From positions 1-9,730 of the forward strand of contig NIRF01000025.1 in assembly GCA_002878375.1 (NCBI GenBank): a DNA stretch of 9,730 nucleotides. Reading direction: 5' to 3'. Each line of letters starts with the position of its first letter. Within the stretch, counting starts at the first letter, position 1. Origin of the DNA: Dictyoglomus sp. NZ13-RE01 (GTDB lineage Bacteria; Dictyoglomota; Dictyoglomia; Dictyoglomales; Dictyoglomaceae). Under the pieces are notes generated by a model. The model had not been told where the DNA came from. It ran no database searches and saw only the letters and a program-made list of their open reading frames with translations. A program made the position numbers and the translations under genes. Shown here one piece after another: positions 1 through 9,730 of the stretch.

Positions 1-126
1 TAAAGCTTTTTTAGAAAGAGCTCTAATTGATGGTTTTTTCTCTTTTATTAAACTCATTATTAACACAATTAAAATTTCTTTTATCTTTTTTCTTAAAGAA
101 AAATCTGGTAGAATATTAATGACCAT
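1..126 (-). CDS. Putative transposase, N-terminal fragment (runs off the left edge)
   Basis: The ATG is at 126-124 and the frame stays open for 42 codons to the window edge. A good ribosome binding site, GGGAGGTG, lies 6 bases upstream. The peptide begins MVINILPDFSLRKKIKEIL and goes on with a basic, helix-rich stretch including KPSIRALSKKAL, which looks like an N-terminal helix-turn-helix of a DDE-type transposase. The transposase call rests mainly on its place inside an exactly duplicated, sharply bounded repeat; the peptide alone would not prove it. It is identical to the partial gene at the right edge but reads the opposite way, so the two point outward. It is cut by the window and not visibly broken. 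Confidence 0.65.
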   Translation of the reverse strand, partial: MVINILPDFSLRKKIKEILIVLIMSLIKEKKPSIRALSKKAL

Positions 127-133
127 AGTTTTC

Positions 134-188
134 ACCTCCCGGGGTTTGGATGTTATCTCTTTCTAATCTAATTCTAACCCTGGGAGGT
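134..188 (-). promoter_or_regulatory. Hairpin that can sequester the transposase ribosome binding site (left copy)
   Basis: The 13-base arms at 188-176 and 146-134 pair at 12 of 13 positions with one A-C mismatch. The second arm contains the GGGAGG ribosome binding site of the transposase. The first arm lies upstream of the predicted start of the element's own transcript, so only mRNA entering from outside would carry both arms. This is the logic known from IS10 and IS50. Confidence 0.6.
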
Positions 189-200
189 TTTTCTTTTCAA
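171..200 (-). promoter_or_regulatory. Transposase promoter of the left IS copy
   Basis: On the minus strand, TTGAAA (200-195) is followed after 18 bases by TAGAAT (176-171). Each hexamer matches the sigma70 consensus at 5 of 6 positions. Predicted transcription starts near 164-162, about 37 bases before the transposase ATG. It is the mirror copy of the promoter at 9532-9561. Confidence 0.6.
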
Positions 201-237
201 AAACTGATTACAGGTCAGTAATATTTGGAAAATTTTA

Positions 238-3259: not shown

Positions 3260-4351
3260 TTAAGGTTTTAAGATTATTTTTATAGAATTTTCTCCATTAT
3301 GAACTAATTCTATTCCTTCCTGGAAATTCTGGAGAGGGAGAATATGGGTAACTATTGAATCTACTTTGACCTTTCCTTCTTCTAAATACCTTATTGCCTT
3401 TGGATAACAAAAAGGACCTAAATGGGCTCCATATATGTTTAGTTCTTTTACGTCTCCAATTATAGACCAATCCACGCAAGTAGGTTCTGCATGTACCCCA
3501 AACTCTACAAAAGTGCCTAATTTTCTTATCATCTTTAAACCTTGAATAACTGCAGATTTTGAACCACTTGCCTCTATGTACACATCACATCCATAACCCT
3601 CAGTAAGATCTAAAACCTTTTTCACTACATCCTCTTCTAAAGGATTAATAACTATATCTGCTCCTAAATTTTTTGCAATTTCTAATCTATTTTGTTTTAG
3701 ATCTATGGCTATAAGAAGTCCTGGACCTTTCATTTTTGCTATCTGAAGCATGAAGAGACCAATTGGTCCCATACCCGCAATTACTACTACATCATTTAGT
3801 TGAATATTTGCTCTTTCCACAGCATGAATAGCACATGCAAGAGGCTCAATAGTTGCAGCATACTCAGGTTTGATGGAGTATGGTACTTTATGGATGATAG
3901 AGTTTGCAGGATACTTCATATATTCTGCCCAAGATCCTTCTGCCCTATCTTTTATGAATCCGAAAATGTCGTGTTGTTGACACATCCAATATTTTCCTTC
4001 TTTGCAAAATCTACATTTACCACAAGGGATAATCTGCTCAGCTATTGCCCAATCTCCAATATCAATACCATGTTTTTCTTTTGCCCCTTCTCCTAATGCA
4101 ACTACTTCACCTATAAACTCGTGTCCAGGAATCACTGGTGTTTGGATATAGGGAGGAATATCTTCTGAGCCCCAAACTCTATGCCCATAGTAAGTTTTAA
4201 CATCACTTGCACATATACCAGTAGCAAGAACTTTTACTAAAACTTCTTCTCTGCCAATTTTAGGAACTGGTCTCTCCTCAAGTCGATAGTCTTTAGGACC
4301 ATAAACTACAACAGCCTTCATTTTATCAGGTAAATTCATAAAAAGGGACAT
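3260..4351 (-). CDS. Zinc-dependent medium-chain alcohol/polyol dehydrogenase
   Basis: A cytoplasmic NAD(P)-linked enzyme interconverting an alcohol and a ketone or aldehyde, of the sorbitol/threonine dehydrogenase group. With ATG at 4351 (363 residues) the visible parts are: catalytic zinc ligands Cys47 (GICASD), His77-Glu78 (GHE) and Glu169 (IEPLA); structural zinc cysteines 110, 113, 116 and 124; the nucleotide fold GMGPIG (193-198), with Asp217 at the end of the second strand favouring NAD over NADP. The segment YWMCQQHDIFGF reminds me of erythritol/L-threitol dehydrogenases, which is a lead and not an assignment. The frame stays open upstream to a TTG at 4369, but ATG 4351 is preferred: it overlaps the rbsD stop as TAATG, implying coupled translation, and has GGAG ten bases upstream. 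It is the last gene of the transport operon, where ribokinase would be expected in a classic rbs cluster. Confidence 0.9.
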   Translation of the reverse strand: MSLFMNLPDKMKAVVVYGPKDYRLEERPVPKIGREEVLVKVLATGICASDVKTYYGHRVWGSEDIPPYIQTPVIPGHEFIGEVVALGEGAKEKHGIDIGDWAIAEQIIPCGKCRFCKEGKYWMCQQHDIFGFIKDRAEGSWAEYMKYPANSIIHKVPYSIKPEYAATIEPLACAIHAVERANIQLNDVVVIAGMGPIGLFMLQIAKMKGPGLLIAIDLKQNRLEIAKNLGADIVINPLEEDVVKKVLDLTEGYGCDVYIEASGSKSAVIQGLKMIRKLGTFVEFGVHAEPTCVDWSIIGDVKELNIYGAHLGPFCYPKAIRYLEEGKVKVDSIVTHILPLQNFQEGIELVHNGENSIKIILKP

Positions 4352-4746
4352 TAGAAAGCAACTCCACAAACAAGAATTATATTAGCATATGGAGTAAATT
4401 CAGCAGATCTTACTATTCCTTTTGCATTTTTGCTTATCTCTTTAAATTTTGTATGGGATACAAACTCTATAGGTGTATTTCCAATTATTTCTTTAATTTT
4501 TTCTAAAAGTTCAGGACTAGTTTTTTCAATTTCTTCTGCAAGTATTACTTTTTCTATAACTATTTCTTCATAAATTGCTTTTAAAATATCTAGAAATCTC
4601 GGTATATTTTTGACTAAGGTTAAATCTATTCTTTTTACATCTTTAGGAATTGGAAAACCTGCATCACAAATAACTAGCAAATCAGTGTGTCCTAAAGATG
4701 ATAAAACCGCAATTAATTCTGGATTTAATATTCCACCTTTTTTCAT
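4351..4746 (-). CDS. rbsD: RbsD/FucU-family sugar pyranase (mutarotase)
   Basis: The family interconverts pyranose and furanose forms (RbsD) or anomers (FucU) of a sugar after import, in the cytoplasm, as a ring-shaped oligomer. The 131 residues match the usual RbsD length and nearly all of its landmarks: MKKGGILNPEL at the N-terminus, LGHTD with catalytic His20, CDAGFPIP with Asp28, RIDLTL (39-44), His98 in VSHTKFK, and the C-terminal TPYANIIL plus CGVAF. The family's usual TGE before that block is SAE here. Ribosome binding site AAGGGGG lies about seven bases before ATG. The gene is 22 bases after rbsC and overlaps the dehydrogenase start by one base. RbsD is known for ribose; with no kinase in the operon the actual sugar may differ. 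Confidence 0.93.
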   Translation of the reverse strand: MKKGGILNPELIAVLSSLGHTDLLVICDAGFPIPKDVKRIDLTLVKNIPRFLDILKAIYEEIVIEKVILAEEIEKTSPELLEKIKEIIGNTPIEFVSHTKFKEISKNAKGIVRSAEFTPYANIILVCGVAF

Positions 4747-4768
4747 AAATTTACCCCCTTATCTAAAT

Positions 4769-5722
4769 TTATTTAGCAAATTTAACTCCTCGAGCTAAAG
4801 ATGTAGCTGCTATTGCTAATACTAAGCCTCGAGCTATGTATTGATAGAAAGGAGGAACTTGTAATAGATTTAAAATATTACCCAAAATAGTCATAATTAA
4901 AGCGCCCATAAATGTTCCTATTAAAGAGCCAATTCCACCTACAAAGCTTATACCTCCAAGTACTGATGAAGCAATGGCATCTAATTCATAACCTTCCCCA
5001 GCAATAGGATATGCAGAATCTAATCTTGCAGTAAGCATTATACCTCCCAATGATGCACAAAATCCTGAAAATGCAAAAACAAAGATTTTTACTTTATCTG
5101 CTTTAATTCCAGAATATCTTAGAGCTTCCTCATTTCCCCCTAAAGCGTATATATATCTTCCTAATCTTGTTTTAGAGAGAATGAATTGACCTAAAATATA
5201 AATAAATATCATTATAAAAGTTAGTCCAGAAATAGGACCAAAATATTTTGCTATTATTCTAAAGGATGGAGGAAAAAGGGAAATAGGGGAACCACCAGTG
5301 ATTATTAATGCCCCACCTCTTGCAATTGCCATCATGGATAGTGTAGCTACAAAAGATGGAATTTTTACTTTTGTTACTAAAAATCCATTAATCAGACCTG
5401 CGCTTATCCCTACGAGTAGTGCTAAGATTATAGAAAGGAAAGGATGTATATTCAAAAATTTCATTAGATAGGCTACTACCGCTCCTGAAAGTGCAAGAAC
5501 CGAACCAGGAGAAAGATCTATTCCACCTACGAGAATTACAAAAGTTTCACCAGCTGCTAAAACGGCTATTACAGCTACTTGAGCTAATATATTTCTAAGA
5601 TTTATAATTGTAAAAAAATATGGGGAAAGAATGGTGGAAACTATAATGAGTCCTAACAAGGCAAAAAAAGGAAAGATTTCTCTTCTTTCAGAAATCCACT
5701 CCCATTTATCTTTTGTGATCAT
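4769..5722 (-). CDS. rbsC: RbsC-type sugar ABC transporter permease
   Basis: An inner-membrane permease of the carbohydrate uptake CUT2 group, working as a dimer with the RbsA ATPase and the RbsB-like receptor. The 317 residues hold about eight to ten hydrophobic segments, starting after a charged N-terminal tail (1-15). Family marks are VGGIDLSPGSVLALSG, the cytoplasmic coupling loop LGRYIYALGGNEEALRYSGI, and the run AGEGYELDAIASSVLGG followed by GGIGSLIGTFMGAL. Length is normal. ATG overlaps the rbsA stop by four bases (ATGA), and AAGGAGG sits seven bases upstream, so the two are translationally coupled. The substrate cannot be read from the permease; ribose or another pentose is the default from context. 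Confidence 0.94.
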   Translation of the reverse strand: MITKDKWEWISERREIFPFFALLGLIIVSTILSPYFFTIINLRNILAQVAVIAVLAAGETFVILVGGIDLSPGSVLALSGAVVAYLMKFLNIHPFLSIILALLVGISAGLINGFLVTKVKIPSFVATLSMMAIARGGALIITGGSPISLFPPSFRIIAKYFGPISGLTFIMIFIYILGQFILSKTRLGRYIYALGGNEEALRYSGIKADKVKIFVFAFSGFCASLGGIMLTARLDSAYPIAGEGYELDAIASSVLGGISFVGGIGSLIGTFMGALIMTILGNILNLLQVPPFYQYIARGLVLAIAATSLARGVKFAK

Positions 5723-7236
5723 ACTTTTGCCTCCTTTTCCAAACCCATTGCCAAGTATAAAATATTTTCTCTTGTGGCCTTATTTTTAGGTAGAATCCCT
5801 TTTGGTTCTCCCTTATAAAGAATTAAAATTCTATTAGCTAAATTCAATACCTCCTCTATTTCTGAAGAAAAAAGTAATATAGAGATGCCTTTTTGAGAAA
5901 GTTCTAAAAGTAACTTTCTTATCTCAGCTTTTGCTCCTACATCAATTCCTCGTGTTGGCTCATCTACTATTAGGATTTTTGGATTAGTAGCTAACCACTT
6001 TGCTAAGACTACTTTCTGTTGGTTTCCACCACTAAGATTCTCTACTTTTTGTTTTAAAGTAGGTGTTATTATCTTTAGCTGTTCTATCCACTTTTTAGCT
6101 ACTTCTATTTCTTTTTTAGAATCAATTATAAAATTCCACCAACAGATTTGGGATAAACTTGGAAGAGTAATATTTTGAGCGACATTCATTTGTCCGATAA
6201 GTCCTTGTTGTCTTCTATTCTCTGGAACTAATCCTATGCCAAGATTCAATGCATCATATGGACTTTTTATTTCTACTCTTTTATTTTCTATCCATATTTC
6301 CCCACTATCTTTTTTTTCTATACCCCATAACACCCTCGCAATTTCAGTTTTTCCAGCCCCTAAAAGACCTGTTATCCCTAAAATCTCTCCTTTGTAAAGG
6401 TTAAAGCATAAATTTTTTACTTTGACAAAAGCGGAAGAAATATTCAGATTTTCAACTCTCATTATTTCTTCTTTAGATAATGTCTCATGAAAGGAAGTAT
6501 ATAAAGTATCAAATGTTTTTCCCGTTATTAGTTGGACTACATAAGAGGGGGAAGTTTTATTTGTTTCTAACGTTGCAATTTTATGACCATCTCTTAATAC
6601 TGTGATTTTATCAGAAATTTCAAATACTTCATCTAGTCTATGACTTATGTATAAAATTGTGATACCTTGCTTTTTCAGGGATCTGATCACATCAAAAAGT
6701 TTAGAAATCTCTGTAATAGTTAATGCAGAGGTAGGTTCATCCATAATAATTATTTTAGCTTTTTTAGAGATAGCTTTTGCTATTTCAACCTTCTGCTGTT
6801 CTCCTATACTTAAACGAGAAACCTTAATCCGGGGAGATATATCTCCCCCTAAAAGTTCAAGGATTTTTTCTGCTTCTTTGAAAATGCTTTCAAAATTTAT
6901 TGTTTTTAAATAAGAGTTATTAGAATCATGTTCGATAAATATATTTTCCGCTACACTAAGATTAGGATAAAGCATTAATTCCTGATGAATCATCACTATT
7001 CCTAATTTGTTTGCTATGGTAGGATTTAAGTTCTCAATCTTTTTTCCCTCCAAATAAATTTCCCCACTATCATTTGGAATAATTCCTGCTATAATTTTCA
7101 TTAAAGTAGATTTTCCAGCCCCATTTTCTCCAACAATTGCATGAACTTCCCCCTTCTCTATTTCTAAAGATACATCTGATAATGCTTTCACTCCTGGAAA
7201 GCTTTTATTTATTTTTTCTAACTTCAAAATTATCAT
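5719..7236 (-). CDS. rbsA: RbsA-type sugar ABC transporter ATPase with two nucleotide-binding domains
   Basis: This cytoplasmic ATPase powers the RbsC permease. The 505 residues contain two fused ABC domains. Domain 1 (about 3-240): Walker A GENGAGKST (36-44), signature LSIGEQQ (142-148), Walker B IIIMDEP with Asp166-Glu167, and H-loop His199. Domain 2 (about 258-500): Walker A GLLGAGKTE (290-298), signature LSGGNQQ (401-407), Walker B with Asp425-Glu426; its H-loop position is SSE (457-459) instead of His. Such asymmetry is typical for CUT2 ATPases, where one site is thought to be weak, although GAGKT here is closer to a standard Walker A than the GAGRT common in this group. ATG follows GGAGGT by seven bases. 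The gene comes 53 bases after the receptor gene, across a hairpin. Confidence 0.95.
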   Translation of the reverse strand: MIILKLEKINKSFPGVKALSDVSLEIEKGEVHAIVGENGAGKSTLMKIIAGIIPNDSGEIYLEGKKIENLNPTIANKLGIVMIHQELMLYPNLSVAENIFIEHDSNNSYLKTINFESIFKEAEKILELLGGDISPRIKVSRLSIGEQQKVEIAKAISKKAKIIIMDEPTSALTITEISKLFDVIRSLKKQGITILYISHRLDEVFEISDKITVLRDGHKIATLETNKTSPSYVVQLITGKTFDTLYTSFHETLSKEEIMRVENLNISSAFVKVKNLCFNLYKGEILGITGLLGAGKTEIARVLWGIEKKDSGEIWIENKRVEIKSPYDALNLGIGLVPENRRQQGLIGQMNVAQNITLPSLSQICWWNFIIDSKKEIEVAKKWIEQLKIITPTLKQKVENLSGGNQQKVVLAKWLATNPKILIVDEPTRGIDVGAKAEIRKLLLELSQKGISILLFSSEIEEVLNLANRILILYKGEPKGILPKNKATRENILYLAMGLEKEAKV

Positions 7237-7253
7237 ATATTTACCTCCATAAA

Positions 7254-7283
7254 AAGGGGTAGGGAATTTTATCCCTACCCCTT
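7254..7283 (-). terminator. Intercistronic hairpin between the binding-protein and ATPase genes
   Basis: A perfect 12-bp stem pairs 7254-7265 with 7272-7283 around a 6-base loop (core GGGGTAGGGA / TCCCTACCCC). On the minus strand only about three T residues follow before the rbsA ribosome binding site, so it is a weak terminator or an mRNA 3'-end stabiliser. Either would yield more receptor than ATPase, a known pattern in ABC operons. Confidence 0.75.
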
Positions 7284-7289
7284 GAAATT

Positions 7290-8318
7290 TTACCTTTTGC
7301 TTCCAGGAATAGGTACAGGAGTTTTAACTATTTCGTTTAGTTTTCCCACATTTTCCTTTGTTACAACCATAACTGGGGTCCCTAAAAGTTTTGCTCCAGT
7401 AGGTGCATAGGTTGGAGTATCCTTTGGAGGAGTCCATCTTAGCTTTTTATATTGATATGCTGCATCTACACCCCAATAACCCATAATATAAGGAGCTTGA
7501 GCCACTGTTGCAGCAAACTCACCTCTTTTTACCGCTTCTACAGCATCAGTTATTGCATCAAAACCTACTATAATCACTCCATCAGGGAATCCTATTTTGT
7601 ATCCTGCTGATTTTAAAGCTTCTAAAGCCCCTAAGGCCATCTCATCGTTGGCTGCAATAACTGCATCAATCTTTTTCTCTCGTGCAATAATATCCTCCAT
7701 AACTTTTAGACCTGTTGCCCTATCAAATCTTGCAGTTAGATCCGCTACGATTTTAATGTTTCCTGCATCTATGTATGGTTTTAATGCATTCTTAAATCCT
7801 TTTTCTCTTTCAATTGCAGAAGATGCGCCAGGAAGTCCTTCAAGAATTACTACATTATATGGCATTGATCTTTTTGTAGCTGTTAATAATTCCCAAAGCT
7901 TCTTTCCGCCAAGCTCAGCAGCTTTTACATTATCTGTCCCTATATAGCAAACTCTATCTCCTCCTACAACATCTCTATCTAAGGTAAATACAGGTATTTT
8001 AGCTTCATTTGCTTTCTTAACAGCAGAAACTAATCCCTCCGCTGTTATAGGATTTAGAAGTATAGCATCAAATCTCATAGTAATTGCATCTTCAATTTGC
8101 TTTGTTTGAAGTTCTACATCATTTCTTGCATCAAAAGTAGCAAGAGCAACATCGAGTTTTCTTGCCGCATCTTCTGCTCCATCCTTCATATCTAAGAAGA
8201 AAGGATGTGCCAAACTACAAATAAATAATCCAAACCTTAAACGTCGTTGAGCAGTTCCTAAAGAAACGAGTAAACTTAAAATTAATAAGAGAGAAAGTAT
8301 TTTTGTAAATTTTTTCAT
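7290..8318 (-). CDS. rbsB: RbsB-like periplasmic sugar-binding protein
   Basis: The extracytoplasmic receptor that delivers sugar to RbsAC. Residues 1-23 are a signal peptide (basic MKKFTK, hydrophobic core, cleavage expected after GTA). There is no lipobox cysteine, so the mature protein should be free and not lipid-anchored, fitting a cell with a periplasm. The mature part is a type I periplasmic-binding fold. Compared from memory with E. coli RbsB, most ribose contacts are present: PFF (39-41), LDR with Asp114-Arg115, Arg171 in EREKGF, FDR (198-200), Asn224 in ANDEMALG, Asp254 in GFDA, Gln274 in VAQAP. One differs: the Asn before PFF is His38. A pentose or similar sugar is likely. The ribosome binding site is the G-rich AAAGGGGGG. 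It is the first transport gene, 95 bases after the repressor. Confidence 0.92.
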   Translation of the reverse strand: MKKFTKILSLLLILSLLVSLGTAQRRLRFGLFICSLAHPFFLDMKDGAEDAARKLDVALATFDARNDVELQTKQIEDAITMRFDAILLNPITAEGLVSAVKKANEAKIPVFTLDRDVVGGDRVCYIGTDNVKAAELGGKKLWELLTATKRSMPYNVVILEGLPGASSAIEREKGFKNALKPYIDAGNIKIVADLTARFDRATGLKVMEDIIAREKKIDAVIAANDEMALGALEALKSAGYKIGFPDGVIIVGFDAITDAVEAVKRGEFAATVAQAPYIMGYWGVDAAYQYKKLRWTPPKDTPTYAPTGAKLLGTPVMVVTKENVGKLNEIVKTPVPIPGSKR

Positions 8319-8413: not shown

Positions 8414-9427
8414 TTACCCTTTTTTACATCCACAAGATTCTCTTATGACTAAGGTATTTTTTAAAACTATTTGTCTTCTCTTATTTGAGTATGGCAACTC
8501 CTCTTTTATAAGTTTTAATAATCTCTTCATAGCATATGCTCCTAGTTTATAAGTTGGTTGAGAAACTGCTGTTAAAGGTGGTGATAAGTGTTGAAACCAT
8601 GGAAAGTCATCAAAAGTGATCACAGCAATATCTTCAGGTATTTTTAATCCACATTCTTTTATTGCTGTGTACACTCCTAAAGCAATTAAATAATTTCCTG
8701 CAAAAATAGCCTTAGGAGGATTTTTCATTTTTATTAACTCCTTCATATTTTTATATCCGCTATCTTCCTTAAATTCTCCAATCTTTATAAGATTTTCATC
8801 ATATGGAATTTTATACTTTTTAAGGGCAAGTTTGTAACCTTCTAATCTTTCTAAACTTGTCGTTATATTTATAGGACCTGTAATAAAACCTATTCGAGTA
8901 TAACCTGTTTCAATAAAATGCTTTGTTGCCTCAAAAGCTCCTCTCTTATTATCTGTGATTATAGTATCAAAATTGGAACCCTCTACTTTTCTATCTACTA
9001 AAACCACAGGGATTCCTTCTCTCTCTAAGGCAGAGAAATGTTCTTTATTTTCACCTGTTGTGGCTATAATCATACCATCAACTTTTTTAGCTCTTAATAC
9101 ATCTATATAAACCCCTTCTTTTTTTGGATTCTCATCAGCATTACAAAGAATAATATTAAAATTATTCTTCATTGCTACATCCTCTATTCCTCTAACCACG
9201 GAAGTAAAAAATGGATTTAGTATATTAGAAATAATTACTCCTATAGTATATGTTTTCTTCTTCTTTAAACTTGCTGCTAAAATATTAGGGTGATATCCTA
9301 ACTCTTTTGCTATCTTTTTTACTTTTCTCTTCAATATGGGATTAACGTTTCCTTTATTGTTAAGAACTCTGGAAACTGTACTTTTTGATACCCCTGCTTT
9401 TAAAGCAATATCTTTTAAGGTCACCAT
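8414..9427 (-). CDS. LacI-family transcriptional repressor of the sugar operon
   Basis: A DNA-binding dimer that releases its operator when a sugar binds, probably controlling its own operon. Residues 4-23 are the helix-turn-helix (LKDIALKAGVSKSTVSRVLN) and 47-54 the hinge. About 60-330 is a sugar-binding domain like RbsB: NPFF (71-74), VDR with Asp145-Arg146, Arg194, FDDFPW (272-277), Gln290; the C-terminus ends SCGCKKG. Two family positions are unusual: the hinge Arg (PNxxARSL) is Ala52, and the usual ND pair near 245 is Asn-Tyr. ATG 9427 is the first usable start, since a TAA lies two codons upstream in frame, and MVTLKDIA is the normal beginning. There is no Shine-Dalgarno sequence; an operator sits where it should be, so synthesis is probably low. 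Close to RbsR/CcpA-like regulators, but the effector is unknown. Confidence 0.93.
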   Translation of the reverse strand: MVTLKDIALKAGVSKSTVSRVLNNKGNVNPILKRKVKKIAKELGYHPNILAASLKKKKTYTIGVIISNILNPFFTSVVRGIEDVAMKNNFNIILCNADENPKKEGVYIDVLRAKKVDGMIIATTGENKEHFSALEREGIPVVLVDRKVEGSNFDTIITDNKRGAFEATKHFIETGYTRIGFITGPINITTSLERLEGYKLALKKYKIPYDENLIKIGEFKEDSGYKNMKELIKMKNPPKAIFAGNYLIALGVYTAIKECGLKIPEDIAVITFDDFPWFQHLSPPLTAVSQPTYKLGAYAMKRLLKLIKEELPYSNKRRQIVLKNTLVIRESCGCKKG

Positions 9428-9471: not shown

Positions 9472-9500
9472 ATGATAAATCCATTTAAAAAAATTGTCAA
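9472..9500 (-). promoter_or_regulatory. Main promoter of the sugar operon
   Basis: On the minus strand a perfect -35, TTGACA (9500-9495), is followed after exactly 17 bases by TATCAT (9477-9472), 5 of 6 matches to the -10 consensus. Transcription should start near 9465, about 38 bases before the repressor ATG. The -35 lies 14 bases from the right IS end, outside it. Confidence 0.8.
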
Positions 9501-9531
9501 GTATTCGTGGGAGCTGACCTGTAATCAGTTT

Positions 9532-9561
9532 TTGAAAAGAAAAACCTCCCAGGGTTAGAAT
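9532..9561 (+). promoter_or_regulatory. Transposase promoter of the right IS copy
   Basis: TTGAAA (9532-9537), an 18-base spacer and TAGAAT (9556-9561) form a promoter with 5 of 6 matches in each hexamer. Transcription should start around 9568-9570, within the loop of the hairpin described next. Confidence 0.6.
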
Positions 9562-9598
9562 TAGATTAGAAAGAGATAACATCCAAACCCCGGGAGGT
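9544..9598 (+). promoter_or_regulatory. Hairpin that can sequester the transposase ribosome binding site (right copy)
   Basis: The arms ACCTCCCAGGGTT (9544-9556) and AACCCCGGGAGGT (9586-9598) pair at 12 of 13 positions across a 29-base loop. The second arm contains the ribosome binding site; the first lies upstream of the element's own transcription start. Confidence 0.65.
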
Positions 9599-9605
9599 GA
9601 AAACT

Positions 9606-9730
9606 ATGGTCATTAATATTCTACCAGATTTTTCTTTAAGAAAAAAGATAAAAGAAATTTTAATTGTGTTAATAATGAGTTTAATAAAAGAGAAAAAACC
9701 ATCAATTAGAGCTCTTTCTAAAAAAGCTTT
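9606..9730 (+). CDS. Putative transposase, N-terminal fragment (runs off the right edge)
   Basis: ATG at 9606 follows GGGAGGTG by 6 bases, and the frame is open for 41 codons to the edge. The encoded peptide is identical to that of the left-edge fragment: a short hydrophobic-acidic start (MVINILPDF), then a basic helical region ending KPSIRALSKKA. The likely role is DNA cleavage and strand transfer by an IS transposase, with this part serving as the N-terminal DNA-binding region. No catalytic residues fall inside the window, so the DDE class is only presumed. The promoter and RNA hairpin upstream suggest that its expression is held low. Confidence 0.65.
   Translation, partial: MVINILPDFSLRKKIKEILIVLIMSLIKEKKPSIRALSKKA

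Follow-up and report, generated by a model that had tools for sequence, protein, structure and literature searches.

An IS10-like inverted repeat in the transposase leader of a thermophile IS4-family element: predicted fold-back control and a candidate antisense RNA

We describe an inverted repeat around the transposase start of an insertion sequence (IS) that is present at both ends of the window (the whole 9,730-nt stretch of DNA that was analysed, which is all of contig C25 in a 34-contig, 1.93-Mb genome). The element is a multi-copy, recently active insertion sequence of the IS4 family, with the IS10 type closest. We suggest that its leader hairpin is probably a real, selected RNA structure, that it likely inhibits transposase expression from read-through transcripts by fold-back, and that the antisense strand probably makes use of this repeat as well. 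The anatomy of the leader, the multi-copy state, the family and the compensatory changes in the arms are established by the sequence.

Organization of the transposase leader

The leader of the right-hand IS copy is organized on the sense strand as follows.

9514 to 9730, plus strand: left end of the IS copy on the right, truncated where the contig stops.
9514 to 9527, plus strand: terminal repeat CTGACCTGTAATCA of this copy.
9532 to 9537, plus strand: −35 hexamer TTGAAA of the transposase promoter (pIN-like), from a promoter scan and kept in 6 of 6 aligned copies.
9544 to 9556, plus strand: arm 1 (anti-Shine-Dalgarno), ACCTCCCAGGGTT, inside the promoter spacer, from the sequence and its covariation with arm 2.
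9556 to 9561, plus strand: −10 hexamer TAGAAT, from the promoter scan, with an 18-nt spacer to the −35.
9586 to 9598, plus strand: arm 2, AACCCCGGGAGGT, which contains the Shine-Dalgarno (SD) site, from the sequence and covariation.
9592 to 9597, plus strand: SD site GGGAGG.
9606 to 9730, plus strand: N-terminal part of the transposase gene (MVINILPDFSLRKK...), with the ATG at 9606–9608, an open frame that runs off the contig.

The two arms pair at 12 of 13 positions, the sole exception being A9551/C9591, and the promoter hexamers match the consensus at 10 of 12. From the position of the promoter, transcription is expected to start at about 9568, in the loop between the arms. The preliminary description of this DNA had placed the arms, the promoter between them and the predicted start in the same way, and its coordinates are confirmed from the sequence. 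It had also stated that the arrangement is duplicated at 134–188; the repeat there is exact, but it belongs to another copy of this IS.

Copies and family of the element

Window positions 2–218 are the reverse complement of 9514–9730 (217 nt, 100%), the contig ends being inverted IS copies.

2 to 218, minus strand: left end of the left-hand IS copy, inverted and identical, from the 217-nt inverted repeat.
176 to 188, minus strand: arm 1 of this copy, from the sequence.
134 to 146, minus strand: arm 2 with the SD, from the sequence.
124 to 126, minus strand: ATG.

The same sequence stands at both ends because the assembly broke inside a multi-copy IS. Its left end has 18 matches in the genome, most of them identical, at contig ends. 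The right ends read TGATTACAGATCAG and were paired with left ends through the flanks for 11 copies, whose target duplications are 10 bp in 7, 9 bp in 3 and 11 bp in 1; an additional 6-nt pair was rejected as chance. A composite transposon is ruled out, because the left-hand copy forms a target duplication of its own with contig C17.

No intact copy is assembled, and the transposase was therefore studied as a composite of the window, L013 and L053. The composite has D100, D168 and E260 together with Y(2)R(3)E(6)K, in the form YRERMKIEEMFRNEK. The IS4 family is defined by DDE and the YREK motif, with the spacing D(60-110)D(100-150)E; the spacings here are 67 and 91, the second slightly short of that range (PMC2266710). 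The composite matches PF01609 (2.1e-11), and its best NCBIfam model is NF033591 with 73.7 bits (37.2 for the next model), which lies below the model's cut-off of 152. For IS10 from plasmid R100, too, NF033591 is the top model (404 bits). Pairwise BLAST between the composite and IS10 aligns the region around YREK only, and a PDB search by sequence gave no match. Judged by its sequence, the element is an IS4-family member with IS10 nearest among the models. It had been called unrelated-looking, which does not hold: with YREK, PF01609 and a best model common with IS10, it is a distant relative with the same leader, and thus not an independent invention.

The IS10 subgroup has CT ends and a 9-bp target duplication (PMC2266710). 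CT ends are present here (CTGA[CT]CTGTAATCA at both IS ends), the length estimated from the composite is about 1180 bp against 1200–1350 bp in the subgroup, and the duplications of the 11 copies span about one helix turn, as in the IS4 family, but are mostly of 10 bp and not 9. With these duplications and a score below the NF033591 cut-off, the element is therefore not filed in the IS10 subgroup.

Relatives of the IS were found only within the same family of genomes. Protein scans of the genome-contig and viral-contig collections yielded none, and the terminal-repeat DNA pattern gave one sister-species contig and two chance matches among the genome contigs, so the comparison draws on this genome and on G001. 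Terminal-repeat matches in G002, G004 and G005 were discarded as tRNA genes (CTGATTTGTAATCAG) or single sites.

Several derivatives were observed as well. In G003, L030 1501–1697 and L032 1501–1697 are near-identical 197-bp non-autonomous elements that end in CTGACCTGTAATCA like the IS; they point the same way, are separated by about 1.7 kb, have similar flanks and are MITE-like derivatives of a related IS. A solo terminal-repeat relic (L034, G000 C19:21512-21549) adjoins an intact IS copy at its target duplication, which reads as an insertion beside an older IS end. Two partial copies, L015 and L016, have a common internal deletion just past the start codon, an intact leader hairpin and different flanks, so the deleted form may have transposed in trans.

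Conservation and covariation of the arms

Six distinct leaders from three diverged lineages were aligned: the window type, L013 (decayed), L015 and L016 (partial), L017 (same genome, 79% identical, broken and without the ATG) and L023 (sister species, 70% identical, decayed, with two unpaired sense-strand positions). The preliminary description had proposed searching the copies for compensatory changes in the arms, and these are found in the diverged ones: among the 13 arm pairs 7 are invariant and 4 change on both sides with the pairing kept, namely A-U to G-C, C-G to U-A, G-C to A-U, and A-U versus U-A where the window type has A-C. The covariation score is 0.195 versus 0.093 ± 0.023 for shuffled alignments, with none of 500 shuffles reaching it, and does not exceed 0.108 in any slid register. 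We consider this covariation good but not overwhelming, as the sequences are few and related. All six copies have an identical −35 and a nearly identical −10, with a spacer of 17–18 nt that always contains arm 1. In every copy arm 2 is exactly the SD, and its complement is retained in arm 1.

Complementarity of this kind could arise by chance between an SD-rich purine stretch and a pyrimidine stretch of the promoter spacer and then be multiplied by the copy number of the IS; identical copies indeed count as one observation, not many. The background was taken from 400 kb of the same genome, with 137 genes that have a GGAGG site. None of the 137 has an upstream complement of 12/13 and two have 11/13. 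Across the 137, the median predicted SD pairing at 75 °C is 0.38; a single gene, with a doubtful start, comes to 0.98, versus 0.99 in the window. The fold z-score of the 55-nt segment is −3.9 on the sense and −5.5 on the antisense strand, the diverged copies show the two-sided changes, and IS10, IS10A and ISEc60 carry the same arrangement. A chance origin is thus highly improbable, and the leader hairpin is probably a real RNA structure maintained by selection.

Folding of the leader and the proposed mechanism

Transcripts were folded at 75 °C, the assumed growth temperature. In the window, the predicted probability that the SD is paired is 0.99 for a leader beginning at the IS end and 0.32 for one beginning at 9568; the corresponding values for the long and short leaders are 0.99 vs 0.37 in L017 and 0.77 vs 0.44 in L023. 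This agrees with the earlier claim that the long RNA hides the site and the short one does not. Anatomy and folding agree with the IS10 geometry, in which the read-through RNA would have both arms and the native mRNA, from its predicted start, arm 2 alone.

Fold-back inhibition operates in IS10 and IS50. For the present element we suggest the following sequence of events, in which the start site, the folding in the cell, the lower translation and the antisense RNA are what we infer from the DNA. As the transposase promoter overlaps arm 1 of the repeat, the element's own mRNA would start in the loop; it would lack arm 1 and leave the strong SD site free. RNA entering from outside would carry both arms, with the SD folded into a 12–13 bp stem that is expected to be stable at 75 °C, and such RNA would be translated poorly, as in the fold-back inhibition of IS10. 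The other strand of the same repeat would, probably, give an RNA-OUT-like antisense RNA too. Fold-back inhibition of read-through transposase expression appears likely on the grounds of sequence and modelling, and among single readings of the sense strand the mechanism of the preliminary description is the likeliest.

The opposite strand

The preliminary description did not take the opposite strand into account; the pairing is better there and resembles that of an antisense RNA of the IS10 type. Two features are proposed there.

9535 to 9611, minus strand: predicted antisense RNA of about 77 nt, a stem-loop (9598–9544) followed by UUUUCUUUU (9543–9535), from the sequence and folding.
9618 to 9626, minus strand: extended −10-like TGGTAGAAT, a candidate pOUT with an expected start at about 9611, from the motif and its position as in IS10 and ISEc60.

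The repeat may thus serve primarily an RNA-OUT-like antisense RNA, with the read-through fold-back as a by-product, the two being coupled in IS10; we regard the chances of this as about evenly balanced. In 6 of 6 copies the hairpin folds more stably on the antisense than on the sense strand. For the window the energies are −26.6 (antisense) vs −19.7 kcal/mol (sense) at 37 °C and −10.1 vs −5.6 at 75 °C, the latter being model extrapolations. Compared with dinucleotide shuffles, the strand asymmetry exceeds expectation in L016 (3.5 SD), L017 (2.4) and L023 (2.1), but the window copy alone has 1.5 SD and ISEc60 shows no asymmetry. A-C mispairs occur twice on the sense strand (in the window type and in L023), and both are G-U on the antisense strand. 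G-U against A-C is a usual sign of which strand is the RNA, although two cases are few; as the A-C mismatch is in the active copies, selection may keep the antisense RNA and not the read-through fold.

With its 5′ end at coding nt 6, the predicted RNA would overlap the SD, the start codon and the 5′ end of the mRNA, like RNA-OUT, which in IS10 is 70 nt long and begins at coding nt 8. The extended −10 (TGGTAGAAT, or TGGTAAAAT in L013 and L023) is antisense to coding nt 13–18, and TGNTA[AG]AAT occurs at antisense coding nt 9–32 in 0 of 236 genes. Hexamers resembling a −10 lie at coding nt 15–21 in IS10, IS10A and ISEc60, from nt 15–16 onward in IS10 and ISEc60. However, the motif was picked after the sequence had been seen and lies in conserved coding sequence (NILP), which gives its conservation another cause, so that the antisense RNA has about an even chance. 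The candidate promoter has a poor −35, the hairpin, with about 30 nt in its loop, is long-looped for a terminator, and the RF00240 (RNA-OUT) covariance model has no match in 9500–9730 at E up to 5. Rfam as a whole gave sub-threshold matches only in the window, nearly all to the minus-strand hairpin and taken as chance. Another promoter-like site of the minus strand (TTAACA/TATCTT, 9672–9645) was rejected, as it is not kept in L023.

On the minus strand the GC-rich stem is followed directly by UUUUCUUUU, and a comparable tail occurs in 15 of 978 comparable hairpins in the 400 kb. Besides favouring an antisense RNA, this would fit an outward-facing intrinsic terminator that stops antisense or outward transcripts at the left end of the IS, with the SD overlap incidental. 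But arm 2 coincides with the SD in every copy and arm 1 keeps the complement. The loop, at about 30 nt, is also unusual, and since a tail of this kind follows just 2 of the 546 long-loop hairpins in the 400 kb, terminators of this genome do not ordinarily take this form. A terminator as the sole role is therefore unlikely, and on the evidence of the sequence we favour the view that the SD-covering repeat probably serves the antisense strand also.

Comparison with known systems

IS10, IS10A, ISEc60 and ISEc29 were analysed in the same way as controls. The first three have an SD- or start-covering repeat whose antisense strand forms a 65–70 nt stem-loop; ISEc29 has no such hairpin by the same measure. 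RF00240 sits exactly at that repeat in IS10 and IS10A, and misses ISEc60 despite the same architecture, so the family model is narrow.

The present element resembles IS10/Tn10 in an inverted repeat that spans the start of the transposase and holds the translation start region in its second arm, the antisense stem-loop of about 70 nt, the antisense −10 (coding nt 13–18 here, 16–21 in IS10), the CT ends, the YREK motif and the common best NCBIfam model. It differs in its strong GGGAGG SD, the ribosome binding site of IS10 being weak (PMC4265352). It also differs in a transposase that is nearly unrecognizable by pairwise BLAST save around YREK, in the U-tract after the antisense stem and in target duplications of mostly 10 bp. 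IS200 has an unrelated transposase of the HUH type. Its tnpA leader likewise sequesters the transposase ribosome binding site in a stem-loop (PMC12594629, PMC3196728), but incoming transcripts are terminated there by a separate stem-loop (PMC3196728). In ISPpu9 the tnp 5′-UTR structure also hides the ribosome binding site and an antisense RNA, Asr9, is present; a difference is that Asr9 stimulates translation (PMC8450116).

Tentatively, and with slightly less than even confidence, we propose that this thermophile IS4-family element has the full double control of the IS10 type, with read-through fold-back and an RNA-OUT-like antisense RNA that an intrinsic terminator within the repeat would end, kept at high growth temperature by an element whose transposase is almost unrecognizable beside that of IS10. 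The leader design of IS10 is known in detail so far from enterobacteria only. If the proposal is true, this design is old within the IS4 family, is common to very distant relatives and works at high temperature, and the covariation shows that the pairing is selected. It would also supply an anatomical test for other IS4-family elements (an SD-covering repeat, a promoter in arm 1 and an antisense −10 at coding nt 13–21), usable where the narrow RF00240 model fails.

Neighbouring genes

Both IS copies of the window adjoin divergently transcribed genes, and read-through from the neighbours is therefore not obvious here. The likely promoter of the regulator (TTGACA 9500/TATCAT 9472, minus strand) has its −35 about 14 bp from the start of the right-hand copy. 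This LacI-type regulator (8414–9427) and an alcohol dehydrogenase lie beside a ribose-type ABC transporter cluster at 4351–8318 on the minus strand (RbsD-like protein, permease, ATPase and binding protein; all names from translations), and the transporter and regulator cluster is framed by the two inverted IS copies. A strong stem-loop at 2221–2268 (AGAAGGGTAATAGGGGATTTTTCCTATTACCCTTCT), similar to a bidirectional terminator, separates the convergent transketolase gene from the gene that follows.
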